From the NCBI RefSeq assembly GCF_004959925.1, contig NZ_SPUW01000001.1, positions 1,054,001-1,118,000 of the forward strand: a stretch of 64,000 nt of DNA, in the 5' to 3' direction. Position 1 is the first letter of the stretch, and the number at the start of each line of letters is the position of its first letter. Positions 9,696 to 53,023 of the stretch are shown piece by piece. Position numbers and translations under genes: made by a program. The notes beneath the pieces are model-generated. The model did no database searches. It was given only the letters and a program-made list of their open reading frames with translations, and had not been told where the DNA came from. The DNA is from Pseudooceanicola onchidii. GTDB taxonomy: Bacteria > Pseudomonadota > Alphaproteobacteria > Rhodobacterales > Rhodobacteraceae.

Positions 9696-11855
9696 TCAGG
9701 CGAAAGCCTCACCAAAGGTGCCGCGGTAGAGCGCCGACAGTTCTGCCAGCGGCGCGCTGCTGCCGCCCATGCTGACGTGATCGCCGGTGAACTTGCCGAC
9801 GGTCGTGACCGACACGCCCGCCTGGCCGGCGGCCACCATCAGCGCCTCGGCGGCGTCGAAGTTGCAGGCCACCAGGTAGCGGCCCTGGTCTTCGCCGAAC
9901 AGGTGACCCTGATCGCTGTCGTCGAGCACGACCCCCACGCCCGAGGCTTCGGCCATCTCGAAGGCCGCCAGCGCAAGGCCGCCATCGCTCAGATCGGTGC
10001 AGGCGCGGATGGTGTCGCGGTTGGCCAGGATGAACTCGCCCGCCGCGCGCTCGGCTGCCAGGTCCACATGCGGCGCGTCGCCTTCGACACGGCCAAAGAC
10101 CTCGGCCAGCAGGGCCGACTGGCCCAGATGCCCCTTGGTCTCGCCCACCAGCAGCGCGACGTGTCCGTCCCGCGCCAGCCCGGTGATCGCGTGATCGACA
10201 TGGTCGATCAGCCCCACGGCGCCGATGGTCGGGGTCGGCAGGATCGCCTGGCCGTCGGTTTCATTGTAAAGCGACACGTTGCCCGACACGATCGGCATGT
10301 CGAGCGCGGTGCAGGCCTGCCCGATGCCTTTGATCGCGCCGACGAACTGGCCCATGATCTCGGGCTTTTCGGGGTTGCCGAAGTTCAGGTTGTCGGTCGA
10401 GGCCAGCGGCCGCGCGCCCGAAGCGACAAGGTTCCGGAACGCCTCGGCCACCGCCTGTTTGCCGCCCTCGACCGGGTTCGCCTTGACGTAGCGCGGGGTG
10501 ACGTCGGACGTGAAGGCCAGCGCCTTGTCCGTCCCGTGCACCCGGATGATGCCCGCGCCAAAGCCCGGGATGCGCATCGTGTCGGCCATCACCTGGCTGT
10601 CGTATTGCTCATAGACCCACTGCCGCGAGGCATAGTTCACCGACCCGATCAGCGCCTTCAGACCGTCGATCGGATCGACCGCCGGGATGTCGCCCAGGGG
10701 CGCGGCGGCTGGCGTCGGCACGTGCGGCCGGTCGTACTCCGGTGCCATCGACGACAGTTTCGACAGCGGCAGGTCGGCCCAGACCTTGCCCTTGTGTTCG
10801 ATCAGGAAGCGGTCTTCGGGGATGGTTTCGCCCACGATGGCGAAGTCGAGGTCCCACTTGTCGAAGACGGCCTTCGCCTCGGCTTCCTTGGACGGATCCA
10901 GCACCATGAGCATCCGCTCCTGGCTTTCCGACAGCATCATCTCGTAGGCGGTCATGCCCTCTTCGCGGCAGGGGACGCGGTCAAGCTCAAGCTTGATGCC
11001 GAGGCCGCCCTTGTCGCCCATCTCCACCGCCGAACAGGTCAGACCGGCGGCCCCCATGTCCTGGATCGAGATCACGGCACCGGTGCGCATCAGCTCCATG
11101 CAGGCTTCCATCAGCCGCTTTTCGGTGAACGGATCGCCCACCTGCACCGTGGGGCGCTTTTCCTCGATGGTGTCGTCAAACTCGGCGCTGGCCATGGTCG
11201 CGCCGCCGACGCCATCGCGGCCCGTCTTGGCACCCAGGTAGACGACCGGCATGCCGACGCCCGAAGCGGCAGAGTAGAAAATCTTGTCCGCATCGGCCAG
11301 ACCGGCGGCAAAGGCATTGACCAGGCAGTTGCCGTTATAGGCCGGATCGAACCGCACCTCGCCGCCCACGGTCGGCACGCCGAAGCAGTTGCCGTAGCCG
11401 CCCACGCCTTCGACCACGCCATGCACCAGCTGCCGGGTCTTGGGATGCGCGACTTCGCCGAAGGACAGCGAATTCATCGCCGCCACCGGACGCGCGCCCA
11501 TGGTAAAGACATCGCGCAGGATGCCGCCCACGCCGGTCGCCGCGCCCTGGTAGGGTTCGATGTAGGACGGGTGGTTATGGCTTTCCATCTTGAAAACCAC
11601 GGCCTGGTTGTCGCCGATATCGACCACGCCCGCGTTTTCGCCCGGCCCGCAGATGACCTGCGGCCCGGTGGTGGGCAGGGTCTTGAGGTGGATCTTCGAC
11701 GACTTGTAGGAACAGTGTTCGTTCCACATGGCCGAAAAGATGCCCAGTTCAGTGAACGTCGGCTCCCGGTTCAGGATCTTGAGGATCTCGGCATATTCAT
11801 CGGGCTTGATCCCGTGGCTCGCGATCAGCTCTTCTGTGATGGCCGGTTCCTGCAT
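9696..11855 (-). CDS. purL: Phosphoribosylformylglycinamidine synthase subunit PurL
   Basis: A 719-residue protein of the small (multi-subunit) PurL type. It makes formylglycinamidine ribonucleotide from FGAR, ATP and ammonia supplied by PurQ, with PurS as bridge, in purine synthesis. Family landmarks: SHGIKPDEY near the N-terminus, [12 protein letters not shown] with the conserved His, [10 protein letters not shown], the [11 protein letters not shown] segment and two AIRS-like halves. It shares strand with bolA and grx4 downstream. purS and purQ are not in the window. Confidence 0.96.
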
Positions 11856-12072: not shown

Positions 12073-12099
12073 AAAAAAGGCCGGACATAAAGTCCGGCC
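12073..12099 (-). terminator. Rho-independent terminator
   Basis: A perfect 8-bp stem (GGCCGGAC/GTCCGGCC), 5-base loop and six T on the minus strand. It ends the candidate small RNA and any read-through from the LysR gene at 12254. Confidence 0.85.
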
Positions 12100-12154
12100 A
12101 AGTCCAACAGGGAGGTATGAAGATGATGAAGCGTTAAGCAGCATCACCGTCACG
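12073..12154 (-). ncRNA. Candidate small RNA with anti-Shine-Dalgarno segment
   Basis: Downstream of the minus-strand LysR gene, a possible promoter (CTTGAT at 12183-12188, 16 bases, CATATG at 12161-12166) precedes about 80 bases ending in GGCCGGAC-TTTAT-GTCCGGCC and six T. The single-stranded part includes UUCAUACCUCCCUG, which is complementary to a ribosome site plus start codon. Alphaproteobacterial regulatory RNAs (for example the AbcR type) use such CUCCC segments to block translation of transporter mRNAs. It may instead be a 3' UTR product of the LysR transcript. The terminator is clear; the promoter and function are inferred. Confidence 0.5.
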
Positions 12155-12253
12155 AGTGCACATATGCGTCGTGTCAGAGTCGATCAAGTTGCAAAATGAC
12201 GCAGGTGCAGCATGGCCGATATGCGATTTGTGCAAGCCTTGATGGTGCGGACC

Positions 12254-13177
12254 TCAGCTGCGCTGGCCAACCTCGTCGGGGCGCGTTTCCTTCAGCCGCT
12301 TGCGGTGTGCGATGATCTCTTCCTGCACGAAGTCGCGGAAAGCCGCGATCCGCTTGGAATGCCGCAGCTCTTCTGGGAAGGCGAGGAACACGGGCACTTC
12401 CTGGCTTTCGACATCCGGCAGCACGCGTTCGAGGGTCGGGAAATCCTCGACCAGGTAGTCCGGCAGCACGCCGATCCCCAGCCCGTTGATCACCGCCTGC
12501 AACACGCCGAAATAGCTGTTCACGGTCAGCAGCGACGCGACATCATGGCTGAGCAGTTCGTTGACCAGCCCGGCGCCCGCCGCGACCTGCGCCGCCGCGG
12601 GGCTTTGGCAGATCAGCCGGTGTGCGCCGATGTCCTCCATCGTCTCGAGCCGCCCGCGCCGATCCAGGTACTCGGGGCTGGCGTACATGCGCATCCGCAC
12701 CGACATCAGCCGCTTGCGGATCAGGTCGGCCTGGCTGGGTTCCTTCATGCGGATCGCCACGTCGGCTTCGCGCATGGGCAGGTCCAGCACGCGTTCTTCC
12801 AGCATCAGGTCGATCTTCAGGTCCGGGTACTTCTCGTAGAACTTCGGCAGGCGCGGCGCGAGCCAGAGCGACCCGAAGCCGGTTGTCGTGGTCACGCGCA
12901 GCTCTCCGAAGACCTCTTCCTCGCTGTCGCGGATCCGCGCGGTCGCGGTATCAAGCCGCTTGGCCATGGCGCGGGTGGCGTCGAACAGCAGCTCGCCCTG
13001 CTCGGTGAGAATCAGGCCCCGCGCGTGGCGGTGGAACAGGGTGGCATTCAGCGATTCTTCCAGCGCCCGCACCTGGCGGGACACCGCCGATTGCGACAGG
13101 TGCAGCGTATCGCCGGCATGCGTCAGGCTGCCCGCGTCCGCCACCGCGTGAAAGATTCTGAGTTTATCCCAATCCAT
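12254..13177 (-). CDS. LysR-family transcriptional regulator
   Basis: A 307-residue LysR protein. The winged helix-turn-helix covers about residues 3-60 (FHAVADAGSLTHAGDTLHLS, then QSAVSRQVRALEE), followed by a type 2 periplasmic-binding-like effector domain. It is divergent from the indolepyruvate ferredoxin oxidoreductase gene with 155 bases between the starts. LysR regulators usually control the divergent gene and themselves, so it may respond to aromatic or branched 2-oxo acids. That is inference from position. A 6-bp inverted repeat lies in the shared region. Confidence 0.9.
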   Translation of the reverse strand: MDWDKLRIFHAVADAGSLTHAGDTLHLSQSAVSRQVRALEESLNATLFHRHARGLILTEQGELLFDATRAMAKRLDTATARIRDSEEEVFGELRVTTTTGFGSLWLAPRLPKFYEKYPDLKIDLMLEERVLDLPMREADVAIRMKEPSQADLIRKRLMSVRMRMYASPEYLDRRGRLETMEDIGAHRLICQSPAAAQVAAGAGLVNELLSHDVASLLTVNSYFGVLQAVINGLGIGVLPDYLVEDFPTLERVLPDVESQEVPVFLAFPEELRHSKRIAAFRDFVQEEIIAHRKRLKETRPDEVGQRS

Positions 13178-13332: not shown

Positions 13333-16300
13333 ATGACCAAGCCAGAGATTACGCTCAACGACCGTTTCGATCTTGAGAAAAGCCCGGTCCTGCTCAACGG
13401 GACGCAGGCCCTTGTCCGTCTGATGCTGATGCAGAAGGCGCGCGACAGGGCGGCGGGGCTGAACACCGCCGGATATGTCACGGGCTATCGCGGATCGCCT
13501 CTGGGCGCCGTCGACATGCAGATGACCCGCGCCGCCAAGCAGCTGGCCGCCGCGGACATCAAGTTTCACGAGGGGTTGAACGAAGACCTGGCCGCCACCG
13601 CGCTCTGGGGATCGCAGCAGGCCGAGCTGCGGGGCGAAGGGCGCTTCGACGGGGTCTTTGGCCTGTGGTACGGCAAGGGGCCGGGGGTCGACCGGTCGGG
13701 CGACGCGATGAAACACGCCAACATGGCGGGCACGTCGCCCCATGGCGGCGTGCTGATGGCCATGGGGGACGACCATACGGGCGAATCCTCGACCGTGCTG
13801 CACCAGTCCGAATGGGCGCTGGTCGATGCCTACATGCCCGTGGTCTCTCCGGCCGGGGTGCAGGAGATTTTGGACCTTGGCGTCTATGGCTGGGCGCTGT
13901 CGCGCTATGCGGGCGTCTGGGTGGGGCTGAAGACCATGAAGGACACGGTCGAGGCGACGAGCGTTGTGGACGGCCGCCCCGATCGCATGTCGCTGGTCAC
14001 GCCCACGGATTTCCCGATGCCCGAGGGCGGGCTGAACATCCGCCTTGTCGATACGCCGACCGAACAGGAAACCCGGATGATCGACCACAAGCGGTTCGCG
14101 GCCGAGGCGTTTTCGCGCGCCAACCGGCTGGACCGTCGGCACTGGGGCAAGCCCGGTGCCAAGATCGGCTTTGTCGCGGCGGGCAAGAACTGGCTCGACC
14201 TGCAGCACGCGCTGGCCCTGCTGGGCATCGATGAGGGCGAGGCCGAACGGCTGGGCATCACCACCTACAAGGTCGCGCAGGTCTTCCCGCTGGACATGCT
14301 GAGCTTTCACGACTGGGCCGAGGGGCTGGACCTGATCGTCGTGGTCGAGGAAAAGCGCAAGCTGATCGAGGTCCAGATCAAGGAGGCACTGTTCGACGAC
14401 AACCGCTACCGCGTCTGGGGCTGGTACAAGGGCGGCGCCGGCGGCCTGCACCGCGAGGAACTGTTCCCGACCCGCGGCGCGCTGGATCCCATCTGGATCG
14501 CGCAGAAGCTGGGCGGCATCCTGATCGACGAAGGCCGCGACACCGATCGCATCCGCGCGGGCCTGAGCGCGCTGGATGAGGCCAAGCGCAACGACAACGC
14601 GCCCGAGATCGCGGCGCGTCTGCCGTATTTCTGTTCCGGCTGCCCGCACAACTCCTCGACCAAGGTGCCCGAGGGATCGCGCGCCTATGCCGGGATTGGC
14701 TGCCACTACATGGTGCAGTGGATGGACCGCTCGACCCAGGGCTTTACCCACATGGGGGCCGAGGGCGCGAACTGGATCGGCGAGGCGCCGTTTTCCAGCA
14801 CCGGGCACGTCTTCCAGAACCTTGGTGACGGCACCTACAACCATTCGGGGGTGCAGGCGATCCGGGCCGCGCTCGCCTCGGATGCGAACATCACCTACAA
14901 GATCCTCTTCAACGACGCCGTCGCCATGACCGGTGGCCAGAAGAACGAAGGCGGTCTGACCCCCGACCGGATCGCGCACGAGCTGACCGCCATGGGCGTG
15001 CGCCGGCTGAGCGTGGTCTACGATGAAAAGGAAGAACCCCGGCGCGAGGATTTCCCCAAGTCCGTCGGCTGGCACGAACGGGCCGAGCTTGAGAGCGTCC
15101 AGAAGGAGATGGCCAAGGTCCAGGGGGTGAGCGTCATCCTTTATGTGCAGACCTGCGCCGCCGAAAAGCGCCGTCGTCGCAAGCGCGGGCAGTTCCCCGA
15201 TCCCGACAAGCGGGTCTTCATCAATTCGGATGTCTGCGAAGGCTGCGGCGATTGTGGCGTTCAGTCGAACTGCGTCTCGATCGTCCCGAAGGAAACCGAA
15301 CTGGGCCGCAAGCGCCAGATCGACCAGTCGTCCTGCAACAAGGACTTCAGCTGTCTCAAGGGCTTCTGCCCATCCTTCGTTACGCTGGAAGGCGCGAAGG
15401 TCAAGAAGGCGACCGGGCAGGGCATCGACCTGCCGGACCTTCCCGCCCCGGTGCTGCCCGCGATCCAGGGCACCCATAACGTGGTGATCACCGGCGTTGG
15501 CGGCACCGGCGTCGTCACCGTCGGTGCGCTGCTGGCGCAGGCCGCGCAGCTGGACGGCAAGGGCGCGGGCATGATGGAGATGGCTGGCCTCGCCCAGAAG
15601 GGCGGCGCGGTGCATATCCATGTCCGACTGGCGGAAAAGCCCGAAGATATCAGTGCGATCCGCGTCGCTACCGGCGAGGCGCACGCCCTGATCGGCGGCG
15701 ATCTGGTGGTCAGCGCCGGCGCCAAGACCCTGGGCCTGACGCGCCAGGGACAGACCGGAGCGGTGGTGAACTCTCACCAGATCATCACCGGGGATTTCAC
15801 CCGCAACACCGAATTCCAGATCCCCTTCGACCGGCTTGAAATGCAGCTTGAGGCGCGGCTGGGCGACCGGGTGGCGCTGTTCGACGCGTCCGAGCTGGCG
15901 CGGGTGGTGATGGGGGATTCCATCTTCTCGAACATGATGGTGCTGGGGGCGGCCTGGCAGAACGGGCTGCTGCCCCTGACTTTGGACGCGATAGAAGGGG
16001 CGATCCGGTTGAACGGCGCGGCGGTCGACAAGAACCTGCACGCCTTCGCCATCGGTCGCTGGGCCGCGCTGCACCCCGAAGAGGCCGCAAAGCGCGCGAC
16101 CACGACCGTGGTGCAGAAGCCCTTGTCCTTGCAGGAAAAGATCGACTTCCGGGCCGATCACCTGCGCGCCCACACCGGGCGCGGGCTGGCCAAGAAGTAC
16201 CGCAAGATGGTCGAGGGGATCAGCGACGATACCCTGAAGCTGGGCGTGGCGCAGGGCTATCACAAGCTGCTGGCCTACAAGGATGAATACGAGGTCGCGC

Positions 16301-16749
16301 GGCTTCTTCTGGACACCGAGAAGAAGGCCAAGGCCGAATTCGACGGCGATTTCCGCATGACCTATCACCTTGCTGCGCCCGTCGTGGCCGGGAAAGAGGA
16401 GAACGGTCGCCCCGGCAAGCGCCAGTTCGGGCCGTGGATGAAGACGCCGCTGTCAGTTCTCGCCCGGCTGAAGGTGCTGCGCGGCACGCCGTTCGATCCC
16501 TTCGGCCGGTCCGAGGAACGCCGGATGGAGCGCGCCCTGATCAAGCAGTACGAGGCCGACATGGCCGAGGTGCTGCCCAAGGTCACGCCCGCCACCCGTG
16601 ACATCGCCGTGGCCATCGCCGAATTGCCCCTGAAGATCAGGGGCTTCGGCCCGGTCAAGGCGGCCAACGAGGCCAAGACCGCCAAGGAACGCGAGGCGCT
16701 GCTGGCCAGCTTCCGCGCCGGTGGCGGGATGGCCAAGGCCGCAGAATAA
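13333..16749 (+). CDS. Indolepyruvate ferredoxin oxidoreductase family protein, fused subunits
   Basis: A 1138-residue single-chain enzyme of the 2-oxoacid:acceptor oxidoreductase family. Such fusions oxidise indolepyruvate and other aryl/branched 2-oxo acids to acyl-CoA, passing electrons to ferredoxin or another carrier. Order: pyrimidine-binding part with GYRGSPLGAVD near residue 45; TPP-binding domain with GIGCHYM and GDGTYNHSG; a Cys-rich cluster region CEGCGDCGVQSNC, then SCNKDFSCLKGFCPSF; and a gamma domain starting ITGVGGTGVVTVGALLAQAA. An ATG with GGGAG upstream is used. A strongly open antisense frame here is a codon-bias shadow. Confidence 0.93.
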   Translation: MTKPEITLNDRFDLEKSPVLLNGTQALVRLMLMQKARDRAAGLNTAGYVTGYRGSPLGAVDMQMTRAAKQLAAADIKFHEGLNEDLAATALWGSQQAELRGEGRFDGVFGLWYGKGPGVDRSGDAMKHANMAGTSPHGGVLMAMGDDHTGESSTVLHQSEWALVDAYMPVVSPAGVQEILDLGVYGWALSRYAGVWVGLKTMKDTVEATSVVDGRPDRMSLVTPTDFPMPEGGLNIRLVDTPTEQETRMIDHKRFAAEAFSRANRLDRRHWGKPGAKIGFVAAGKNWLDLQHALALLGIDEGEAERLGITTYKVAQVFPLDMLSFHDWAEGLDLIVVVEEKRKLIEVQIKEALFDDNRYRVWGWYKGGAGGLHREELFPTRGALDPIWIAQKLGGILIDEGRDTDRIRAGLSALDEAKRNDNAPEIAARLPYFCSGCPHNSSTKVPEGSRAYAGIGCHYMVQWMDRSTQGFTHMGAEGANWIGEAPFSSTGHVFQNLGDGTYNHSGVQAIRAALASDANITYKILFNDAVAMTGGQKNEGGLTPDRIAHELTAMGVRRLSVVYDEKEEPRREDFPKSVGWHERAELESVQKEMAKVQGVSVILYVQTCAAEKRRRRKRGQFPDPDKRVFINSDVCEGCGDCGVQSNCVSIVPKETELGRKRQIDQSSCNKDFSCLKGFCPSFVTLEGAKVKKATGQGIDLPDLPAPVLPAIQGTHNVVITGVGGTGVVTVGALLAQAAQLDGKGAGMMEMAGLAQKGGAVHIHVRLAEKPEDISAIRVATGEAHALIGGDLVVSAGAKTLGLTRQGQTGAVVNSHQIITGDFTRNTEFQIPFDRLEMQLEARLGDRVALFDASELARVVMGDSIFSNMMVLGAAWQNGLLPLTLDAIEGAIRLNGAAVDKNLHAFAIGRWAALHPEEAAKRATTTVVQKPLSLQEKIDFRADHLRAHTGRGLAKKYRKMVEGISDDTLKLGVAQGYHKLLAYKDEYEVARLLLDTEKKAKAEFDGDFRMTYHLAAPVVAGKEENGRPGKRQFGPWMKTPLSVLARLKVLRGTPFDPFGRSEERRMERALIKQYEADMAEVLPKVTPATRDIAVAIAELPLKIRGFGPVKAANEAKTAKEREALLASFRAGGGMAKAAE

Positions 16750-51767: not shown

Positions 51768-51838
51768 GGGTAGCGTCAAAACATTATAATATTCCGCATA
51801 TTCCGCTTTGGCTATGGTCCGAGTCGGGAGGAACGCAC

Positions 51839-53023
51839 ATGACCACAGACATCAGGCCCCTGGACGGTATCCGCGTCGTCGAGATGACCCATATGATCAT
51901 GGGGCCGTCCTGTGCGATGTTCCTTGGGATGCTGGGCGCCGAGGTGATCAAGGTCGAACCGCCCGAGGGCGACAAGACCCGCAACCTGACCGGCATGGGG
52001 CGCGGGTTCTATCCGACGTTCAATCGCGGCAAGAAATCGGTGACGCTGGATCTGAAGTCAGACGCCGGCAAGGCCGCGCTGCACACCCTGCTTGCGACCG
52101 CCGATGTCTTTGTCGAAAACTTCCGCGATCAGTCCCTGGCCAGGATGGGCTTTGCCCCCGATGTGCTGAAGGCGCGTTATCCATCGCTGATCGTCTCGTC
52201 TCTCAAGGGGTTTCTGAAGGGCCCCTACGAGAACCGGACGGCCATGGACGAGGTGGTGCAGATGATGACCGGCATGGCCTACATGACCGGCCCGACCGGG
52301 CGGCCGCTGCGGATCGGGTCGTCGGCCAACGACATCATGGGGGGGCTGTTCGGGGCCTTTGCCGTACTGGCCGCGCTGCTGGAACGCCAGAAGGATGGCA
52401 GGGGACACGTCCTGCGCACGGGCCTGTTTGAAAACTGCCTTTTCCTTGTCGCGCAGCACATGGTCCAGTTCGACATCGAGGGGCGCGAGGCGCCGCCGAT
52501 GCCCGAGCGTGAATTCTCCTGGCCGGTGTATGATATCTTTGAAACCCGCGACGCCCGGCAGATCTTCGTCGGCGCCGTGACCGAAGGCCAGTGGGTGACG
52601 CTGTGCCGGATCCTGGGCCTGCAGGACCTCCTGGACGACCCGGCGCTGCAGACACGTATGGATCAGATCAACGACCGCGACCGGACCATCCCCGTGGTGG
52701 CCGAGGCCGTGCGGACCCGCGATTTCGCCGATCTGATCGCGGCGTTTGAGCCGGCGGGTATTCCGTTTTCGCCGATCCACCGTCCGGCCGAGATGTACGA
52801 CGATCCGCATGTGAACCGGCCGGGGGGGCTCTTTGCCTCGACCCTGCCCGAGGGCCAGACCTACCGCGCGCCCGCCATGCCGTTCGAAATCGACGACCGG
52901 CCGCTCACTGGCGGCACGCTTGATATCCGCGATATCGGGGCGGACACGCAGGCGGTGCTGTCGGCCGCAGGTCTCGATGCACGCGATATCGCACGCGCCT
53001 CGGGCCGGGCGGTGCAGGCGTGA
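51839..53023 (+). CDS. CaiB/BaiF-family (class III) CoA transferase
   Basis: A 394-residue protein starting at the ATG at 51839 with GGGAGG upstream. Family blocks: LDGIRVVEMTHMIMGPSCAM, GAEVIKVEPPEGD, FNRGKKSVTLDLK and NRTAMDEVVQ, with Asp137 the likely nucleophile forming the acyl anhydride. These enzymes move CoA from a donor such as succinyl-CoA to a carboxylic acid. The next gene, a HMG-CoA lyase-family enzyme, overlaps it by 4 bases (GTGA), so the CoA ester made here is probably split there. Confidence 0.92.
   Translation: MTTDIRPLDGIRVVEMTHMIMGPSCAMFLGMLGAEVIKVEPPEGDKTRNLTGMGRGFYPTFNRGKKSVTLDLKSDAGKAALHTLLATADVFVENFRDQSLARMGFAPDVLKARYPSLIVSSLKGFLKGPYENRTAMDEVVQMMTGMAYMTGPTGRPLRIGSSANDIMGGLFGAFAVLAALLERQKDGRGHVLRTGLFENCLFLVAQHMVQFDIEGREAPPMPEREFSWPVYDIFETRDARQIFVGAVTEGQWVTLCRILGLQDLLDDPALQTRMDQINDRDRTIPVVAEAVRTRDFADLIAAFEPAGIPFSPIHRPAEMYDDPHVNRPGGLFASTLPEGQTYRAPAMPFEIDDRPLTGGTLDIRDIGADTQAVLSAAGLDARDIARASGRAVQA

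Follow-up and report, generated by a model that had tools for sequence, protein, structure and literature searches.

Does a short interval downstream of a LysR-type gene of Pseudooceanicola onchidii encode a regulatory RNA and, if so, which one, and under whose control? The question is raised by the minus strand of the window (the whole stretch of DNA analysed, 64,000 nucleotides), where a promoter-like pair of boxes is followed, from 12188 down to 12073, by about 80 nt, and then by a perfect GC-rich stem and six T. These are the parts on which a sequence-only reading had based its proposal of a small RNA, and conservation among relatives supports it. The predicted sRNA is 81 nt long (12073..12153, minus strand), as delimited by Rfam, by synteny and by the published start of SorY (1,632,642), which was mapped on an R. 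sphaeroides-like genome, G051, and transferred by homology to 12153 to 12151.

The RNA comprises a 5' hairpin (12117..12153), recognized by folding and covariation, an invariant core, ACCUCCCUGUUGGAC (12102..12116), which is the putative anti-Shine-Dalgarno seed and is delimited by its conservation in regions anchored on the LysR gene, and an intrinsic terminator (12073..12099), found by a terminator scan and by folding, with a perfect 8-bp stem at 12099-12079 and T6 at 12078-12073, all on the minus strand. The RNA strand folds 5 standard deviations better than its shuffles (z of -5.0), and the core (12116-12102) is the part predicted to be mostly single-stranded, with a mean unpaired probability of 0.71. 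It had also been proposed that the unpaired part mimics the complement of a whole ribosome site, Shine-Dalgarno and start codon together, and the complement of CAGGGAGGTATGAAGATG is found on the plus strand at 12108-12125. The Shine-Dalgarno part of this proposal holds, with ACCUCCCUGUUGGAC exposed; the start-codon part falls, as CAUCUUCAU, the complement of the start codon, is paired within the 5' hairpin, whose 3' arm it forms, and is not conserved. Within the 3.67-Mb genome, exact copies of the 12-mer CCTCCCTGTTGG stand at two places, this locus and the true SorX, and the sole Rfam match at gathering level in the whole window is that of the SorX model (RF02784) at 12073-12153, with 53.4 bits against a gathering score of 46.6 (E 3.7e-10). 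Model R2 gives the locus 85.6 bits, its own sequence being among the 75 from which this model was built. Judged by its sequence, the suspected RNA looks like a real sRNA gene.

The gene order at the locus, with an indolepyruvate ferredoxin oxidoreductase (IOR) family gene divergent from LysR, followed by the RNA, purL, bolA and grxD, is that found around SorY in G051, a genome which is taken as R. sphaeroides given that its SorX (C4:2598225) and its SorY (C4:1632645) lie within 3 bases of the positions published for that species (2,598,224 and 1,632,642, respectively). The synteny markers in the window are purL downstream (9696..11855, minus strand; NCBIfam NF002290, 974 bits) and the IOR gene (13333..16749, plus strand; NCBIfam NF009588, 1458.8 bits), and the SorY of G051 is flanked by the same LysR (80% identical) and the same purL (78%), with IOR, bolA and grxD around. 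The RNA of P. onchidii thus has the traits of SorY, since it lies between LysR and purL, with IOR divergent, and starts about 7 nt past its -10 element, as placed by sequence and homology. It resembles the SorY of R. sphaeroides (RSs1543, RF02651) in its gene order, its promoter with a matching start, its 5' hairpin, the exact TTCATACCTCCCTGTTGGACTTG and its terminator; it differs in the sequence of the 5' hairpin and in that no takP target was detected in its own genome at E<=1e-100. The SorY model (RF02651) reaches 44.6 bits at 12073-12153, below its gathering cutoff of 111, and gives 115 bits in G051 and 58.1 in a syntenic copy of Paracoccus; this cutoff seems to mark near-identity rather than the orthologous group, and was not treated as defining. 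The preferred reading, to which a probability of about 0.85 is assigned, is that 12073..12153 (minus strand) is the SorY orthologue, jointly with a circuit that would combine stress, LysR, Hfq and anti-Shine-Dalgarno pairing.

The 23-mer TTCATACCTCCCTGTTGGACTTG was found, with at most 2 mismatches, in 133 of the 295 genomes of the family (its reversed control in 0), at 137 places, of which 131 were read, the window included, a set that is chosen by the motif itself. The same LysR stands upstream of the RNA in 124 of these 131 loci, with a median gap of 143.5 nt, and is present at E<=1e-90 in 287 of the 295 genomes. A second set was chosen by LysR rank, by taking the 40 highest-ranking LysR places without an adjoining match to the 23-mer, and ACCTCCCTGTTGGAC lies downstream of 37 of them exactly, of one with 1 mismatch, and of 2 not at all. 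In the 38 LysR-anchored regions with the ACCUCCCUGUUGGAC core, the core columns are 97-100% identical, each core being by selection within 1 mismatch, and the flanks are at 36-37%, i.e., the background level. The conserved block extends upstream of the mimicked Shine-Dalgarno, and not into the start codon. The CCUCCC segment, the conservation of which beyond the terminator the sequence-only reading had proposed as a check, is therefore kept in relatives.

The sequence of the 5' hairpin varies and its pairing is kept, given that 101 of 102 homologues have z<-1 against mononucleotide shuffles (22 of the 124 loci, those lacking CTTGAW at -85 to -45 or a T-run, were left out of this set). In the alignment A1, which contains 75 of the 102 RNAs and favours an alignable hairpin by the omission of shorter and longer 5' parts, all five measures of covariation exceed those of 500 shuffles (0/500), which do not keep relatedness, and 94.2% of the cells are paired, against at most 54.7% when the hairpin is slid. 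At least 118 stretches with the motif come from named genomes, and the 80 listed are taken, judging by their names, to be Rhodobacterales or unnamed MAGs; these named relatives would make the RNA a Rhodobacterales family. Model R2 gives at least 74.8 bits in 5 listed genomes of the family, and none of the 380 others in the class rises above 45.8. Weak matches to R2, of 34.7-45.8 bits, occur in 39 of these 380 genomes outside the family and are perhaps RNAs of the alphaR8 type, with CCUCCC and a terminator. No RNA at the place of SorY was found in the passages searched of papers on the sRNAs of Ruegeria and Paracoccus. The LysR-SorY pair is also present on other replicons: on the 63-kb plasmid pOA307_63 of Octadecabacter antarcticus (L467) it adjoins repC, without purL, and in Paracoccus the two genes stand together on large plasmid-labelled replicons of at least 1.4 Mb, among them L466, in which purL comes next.

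The upstream neighbour of the RNA (12254..13177, minus strand) encodes a LysR-type regulator that appears to belong to the LsrB/VtlR group. In the PDB, its top match is 9hh1 (3.7e-75; the next is 2.7e-31), which is the LsrB of A. tumefaciens (PMC11975290), and 50 of its first 64 residues agree with LsrB. Its sole match at E<=1e-60 in each of three rhizobial records is the lsrB/vtlR gene, i.e., in S. meliloti CP090106 (39.4%), in R. leguminosarum (41.5%, annotated VtlR) and in Shinella (41.5%), the matches coming from plasmid-labelled records. One of these records, the 3.7-Mb S. meliloti CP090106.1 (L459), is titled pSymB and carries trxB-lsrB-ar15-arsR; the label looks wrong, and the region lsrB-ar15 of S. 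meliloti is placed on the chromosome in PMC7486931. The LsrB of S. meliloti scores 236-250 bits with the LysRs of four Rhodobacterales SorY loci and 55-67 bits with three other LysR in 464 kb of P. onchidii DNA. A tree of the LysR proteins did not resolve, its outgroups being too long. The redox cysteines of LsrB, C144 and C273, both of which are reported to be kept in the LsrB of B. abortus and S. meliloti, are aligned with Val and Ala, and Cys190 is the only cysteine of the protein, which speaks against full LsrB/VtlR membership and implies that the signal sensed may differ. Similarly, trxB precedes lsrB in L459 and L460, whereas the LysR of the window has no adjoining trxB, and IOR is divergent instead. 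LsrB was called unique to Rhizobiales in PMC11975290; the closest relatives of the neighbouring LysR are those with which it groups in these sequence comparisons, i.e., LsrB/VtlR. As no palindrome with at most 1 mismatch was found in the LysR/IOR intergenic stretch, autoregulation of LysR is not supported.

A candidate operator of the LsrB/VtlR type, GCAT-N7-ATGC (12210..12224; minus strand GCATATCGGCCATGC; -71 to -57), lies 29 bp past the stop of LysR and some 36 bp ahead of the -35 element, and was recognized by its conservation and by the published form of the box, GCAT-N3-TG-N3-T, which is reported with abcR1/2 beside lsrB/vtlR (PMC8844928, PMC7486931). A logo anchored on the -35 of SorY alone, and covering 134 of 162 loci, has a conserved GCAT...C.G...TG at -36 to -22 before the -35, with G at 85% and T at 82% in the positions of the published box. 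In its strict form, this box is present in 13 of the 162 SorY regions (12/124 and 1/38); with one T relaxed (GCAT-N4-G-N3-T), a form chosen after the logo was seen, it is present upstream of SorY in 149 (114/124 and 35/38), against about 4 in shuffles (2.9 and 0.8, respectively) and 1 of 32 in the SorX regions used as a control. The palindrome GCAT-N7-ATGC, with at most 1 mismatch, is found in 141 of 162 regions (6.3 in shuffles, 12 in the downstream control), its distance to the -35 element being 36 or 35 bp in 90 of 117. In the named set, LysR is present in 72 of 80 loci and the box in 64 of the 75 usable ones, 5 of the 80 being too short for this count. As 464 kb of P. onchidii DNA contain 19 exact copies of GCAT-N7-ATGC, against 5 to 7 in shuffles, it is the fixed place, and not the palindrome alone, that is specific. 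The conserved site suggests that the neighbouring LysR may also control SorY. The logo has, in addition, a second conserved GCATGC-like half site, upstream of the SorY -35 by some 51 to 43 bases, which would suit a two-site LysR.

The promoter itself consists of a putative -35 element, CTTGAT (12183..12188, minus strand), assigned from the conservation of CTTGAW, and a putative -10 element, CATATGT (12160..12166, minus strand), assigned from column counts, where the family consensus is CCTAAAT. A sigma-70 scan of the locus found no promoter. Among the 124 LysR-linked loci, 104 have CTTGAW at most 130 nt upstream (the background being 0.06 per stretch), with CCTAAAT-like letters 16 nt past it, and the published start of SorY in G051 is 7 nt past the -10, the start at 12153 in the window being placed by homology. 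Published promoters read CTTGAA-N15-16-CCTATAT for RpoH1 and CTTGCC-N15-16-CCTATCT for RpoH2 (PMC4843759), and those of RpoHI/RpoHII have TTG at -36 to -34, A-12 and T-9 (PMC3441632), all of which are present in the window. The boxes resemble the RpoH/RpoD consensus of alphaproteobacteria more than the form sought by the sigma-70 scan, and are RpoH-like in sequence; given that the RpoD consensus of the class, CTTGAC-N17-CTATAT, is similar to the RpoH form, the letters alone do not decide between RpoH and RpoD. This is the ground on which the strongest of the alternatives stands, namely that the housekeeping sigma factor reads the promoter, with LysR as the activator and a small role for RpoH: the spacing, of the type CTTGAT-N17-CTAAAT, also fits RpoD, a LysR-type operator is present, and position -14 in the window is A, where RpoHII promoters favour C. 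Such a division of roles is rather unlikely, considering that A-12 and T-9 are as in RpoHI/II promoters both in the window and in most loci, that C-14 and T-13 are found in most loci, and that SorY is reported in R. sphaeroides to be RpoHI/RpoHII-dependent, stress-induced and Hfq-bound. The genome of P. onchidii also has one clear rpoH (373.6 bits) and a second, weaker rpoH-like gene (269.1 bits; cutoff 323.1).

SorY as an RNA family of its own, together with SorX, has to be weighed against descent from alphaR8 (MmgR/SisA) or from ar15 (AbcR). The RNAs of alphaR8 (MmgR, SisA-D) are reported to follow the same plan, i.e., a weak hairpin, an exposed CCUCCC anti-Shine-Dalgarno stretch and a terminator, and many reported targets of SisA are membrane transporters; the suhB/MmgR model finds a weak 26.8 bits at the locus, and in rhizobia ar15 lies next to lsrB in the corresponding position, directly 3' of an LsrB/VtlR-type gene, as does the RNA of the window, with a relaxed box. 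Against this, the suhB score lies below its gathering cutoff of 41, and the alphaR8 (MmgR) 10-mer UUUCCUCCCU is absent, the locus having UACCUCCCUG; LysR and purL flank the RNA instead of an adjoining FGase gene. The ar15 model (RF02345) has no listed match at the locus either at gathering level or at E<=1; two SorY loci likewise gave none at E<=0.1, nor did three ar15 loci give a SorX/SorY match in return. Sequences intermediate between SorY and alphaR8/ar15 were looked for in four loci from other orders (L461-L464), and none was seen. Descent from either family is therefore improbable, and SorY works like ar15 (AbcR) without being a member of it.

That the locus is SorX, as Rfam labels it, is very improbable, even though the gathering score of RF02784 is passed and the 15-nt core is identical. 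SorX (RSs2461) shares ACCUCCCUGUUGGAC and the plan of the terminator with this RNA; it is reported, however, to be cut from the 3' UTR of an OmpR-like gene, its place in the genome is different, and its loci lack the LysR box (1/32). The published position of SorX in R. sphaeroides, downstream of an OmpR-like regulator (PMC8625941, PMC6238624), is matched in P. onchidii by the best SorX of the genome, at C2:470259 (77 bits), which follows an OmpR-like response regulator, whereas the RNA of the window has LysR, and no 3' end of an OmpR-like mRNA, as its neighbour, and agrees with SorY in its place, its promoter and the genes around it. The SorX model also cross-hits, as the SorY of G051 itself scores 43.6 bits with it, and the label arises because the core and terminator are common to SorX and SorY. 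A response regulator is found at 30 of 30 SorX loci and the exact core in 24 of 30, and SorY and SorX are, by sequence, seed siblings with a common core. Two further SorX-like candidates of the P. onchidii genome, at C1:1578670-1578735 (L003) and C2:957120-957185 (L004), fall short of the cutoff with 33.5 and 26.6 bits, respectively, and the former reads CUUCCUCCCUGUCUGAC ahead of its terminator. The weakest alternative is that the locus only terminates the LysR mRNA and has no function as an sRNA, or else that a leader peptide is encoded on the plus strand (ATG AAG ATG ATG AAG CGT TAA). It draws on the position of the RNA after the LysR gene and on a plus-strand Shine-Dalgarno with a 6-codon frame, and is very improbable, given the promoter and operator, which are the RNA's own and are conserved, the invariant core with variable flanks, the covarying hairpin, the would-be codon bases that vary among relatives, and the SorY transcript with its own start that is reported in R. 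sphaeroides.

If the RNA is SorY, its pairing with this particular LysR calls for comparison with AbcR, a comparison already drawn by the sequence-only reading and an apt one, since LsrB/VtlR, the group into which the neighbouring LysR falls, adjoins AbcR in rhizobia. Regulators of this type are reported to control the AbcR RNAs in rhizobia and their kin, AbcR2 is described as RpoH1-driven (PMC8844928), and the accounts of LsrB control of AbcR in S. meliloti differ between PMC8844928 and PMC7486931. In the Rfam scan of LysR loci, from which Microvirga (L468) was left out, two tandem ar15/AbcR RNAs (97-127 bits) were found directly 3' of the lsrB-type gene in all three rhizobial records, and no such RNA beside LysR in two Azospirillum, Tistrella and Methylobacterium loci, although the LysR there is closer (47-50%). 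The three rhizobial records have the same palindrome 61 to 47 bp before the first copy of ar15, counted from the Rfam start, and R. leguminosarum has it before the second copy too; the box of SorY, at -71 rather than -61, is therefore about one helical turn further out. AbcR1/AbcR2 (ar15, RF02345) are like SorY in being anti-Shine-Dalgarno sRNAs directly 3' of an LsrB/VtlR-type gene, with a GCAT-type box upstream and, as reported, an RpoH1-type promoter (AbcR2) and transporter targets; they differ in their Rfam family, their two tandem copies, their flanking genes and the place of the box, and the LsrB and RpoH1 inputs of S. meliloti are reported on different RNAs. Because the LysR groups with LsrB/VtlR and a relaxed box lies upstream, SorY is probably the Rhodobacterales counterpart of AbcR, with a combined RpoH and LysR input. 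The wider proposal towards which we lean, with some reserve, is that of an old alphaproteobacterial circuit of LysR and anti-Shine-Dalgarno sRNA in which the RNA was swapped (AbcR in Rhizobiales, SorY in Rhodobacterales), with LysR and RpoH on one promoter, a frozen seed and changing targets. No report linking SorY with VtlR, LsrB or AbcR was found in the literature searched, which was largely open-access.

With respect to the targets, the suggestion of an RNA that acts in trans on the Shine-Dalgarno regions of transporter and catabolic mRNAs fits the identity with SorY, whose published target in R. sphaeroides is the transporter mRNA takP. At E<=1e-100, takP is present in 43 of the 295 genomes, and not in that of P. 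onchidii. A dctP protein of G051 aligns over its full length with PDB 2hzk (E 3.1e-254); the file is titled SmoM, and we take 2hzk to be TakP. The takP gene of G051 served as a positive control: it carries GTCCACAAGGGAGG ahead of its ATG, and of the 9 dctP genes of that genome it gives the strongest duplex (-24.2 kcal/mol). Pairing beat that of a shuffled upstream stretch in 15 of 30 takP orthologues and is not conserved beyond the Shine-Dalgarno, so that pairing with takP was rejected as the conserved cause of the core.

The targets proposed within the window were ranked among 396 gene starts, called heuristically in 464 kb of P. onchidii DNA, by hybridisation energies that take neither accessibility nor conservation into account. 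The leader GTCC...GGGAGG...ATG (51817..51841, plus strand) of a CaiB-type CoA-transferase gene (51839-53023) is a good candidate target site, given that its duplex of -21.5 kcal/mol is 6th, with 5 of the 396 better; dctP2 (-18.7, about 28th, 27 better) is a fair one and dctP1 (-16.2, about 84th, 81 better) is ordinary, and 105 gene starts are better than dctP3 (-15.7). The GGGAGG leaders, which had been read as a pointer to dctP units 1 and 2, do not single them out, as they are common among the dctP genes of this genome. Of the 19 TRAP binding proteins of the DctP type in the genome, three are encoded in the window (at 45.0, 54.0 and 61.2 kb), and many of the 19 have a GGGAGG leader. Elsewhere in the genome, the best ungapped complement, CCAACAGGGAG, stands before the gene of an amino-acid ABC binding protein (C1:876693), and a dctP starting at C4:56648 reaches -21.0. 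Extended complements are in no surplus at the 396 gene starts (7 real against 10.75 with a permuted tail). With at most 2 mismatches, 35 complements were found in the genome, against 18 for the reversed control, and a gene-start filter left five of the 33 outside the two self loci; among these five, the dctP at C4:56648 is the one whose start looks genuine, the other four being GTG/TTG starts of short or doubtful frames. A duplex scan of the whole window was set aside as a source of targets, being dominated by GC-rich coding DNA.

Given the identity, structure, conservation, promoter and box of SorY as read from the DNA, the expression of this RNA in P. onchidii, its control by LysR and RpoH, and its targets may be pictured as follows. 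SorY would be made under stress through RpoHI/RpoHII, and the neighbouring LysR would activate it further through the upstream box. The hairpin and the terminator would most likely protect the RNA, and Hfq would bind it, holding its U tail. The mRNAs covered at their Shine-Dalgarno regions by the exposed ACCUCCCUGUUGGAC, in a manner reported as shown for AbcR and proposed for SisA, would be transporter and catabolic ones, in a set that changes, and the pairing would lower the translation or the stability of these targets. In this way, SorY and its LysR would be to Rhodobacterales what the LsrB/VtlR-AbcR circuit is to rhizobia, the sRNA belonging to a different Rfam family.

The finding names a candidate regulator gene for SorY, one open to deletion in common laboratory strains, and it turns a stress RNA that was studied in one species into a module that would extend across many genera of its family. 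The SorX label of Rfam can hide a SorY, and annotations may therefore conflate the two. If the proposed relationship is true, SorY and AbcR would belong to circuits of the same kind, which goes against the view of LsrB as confined to Rhizobiales.
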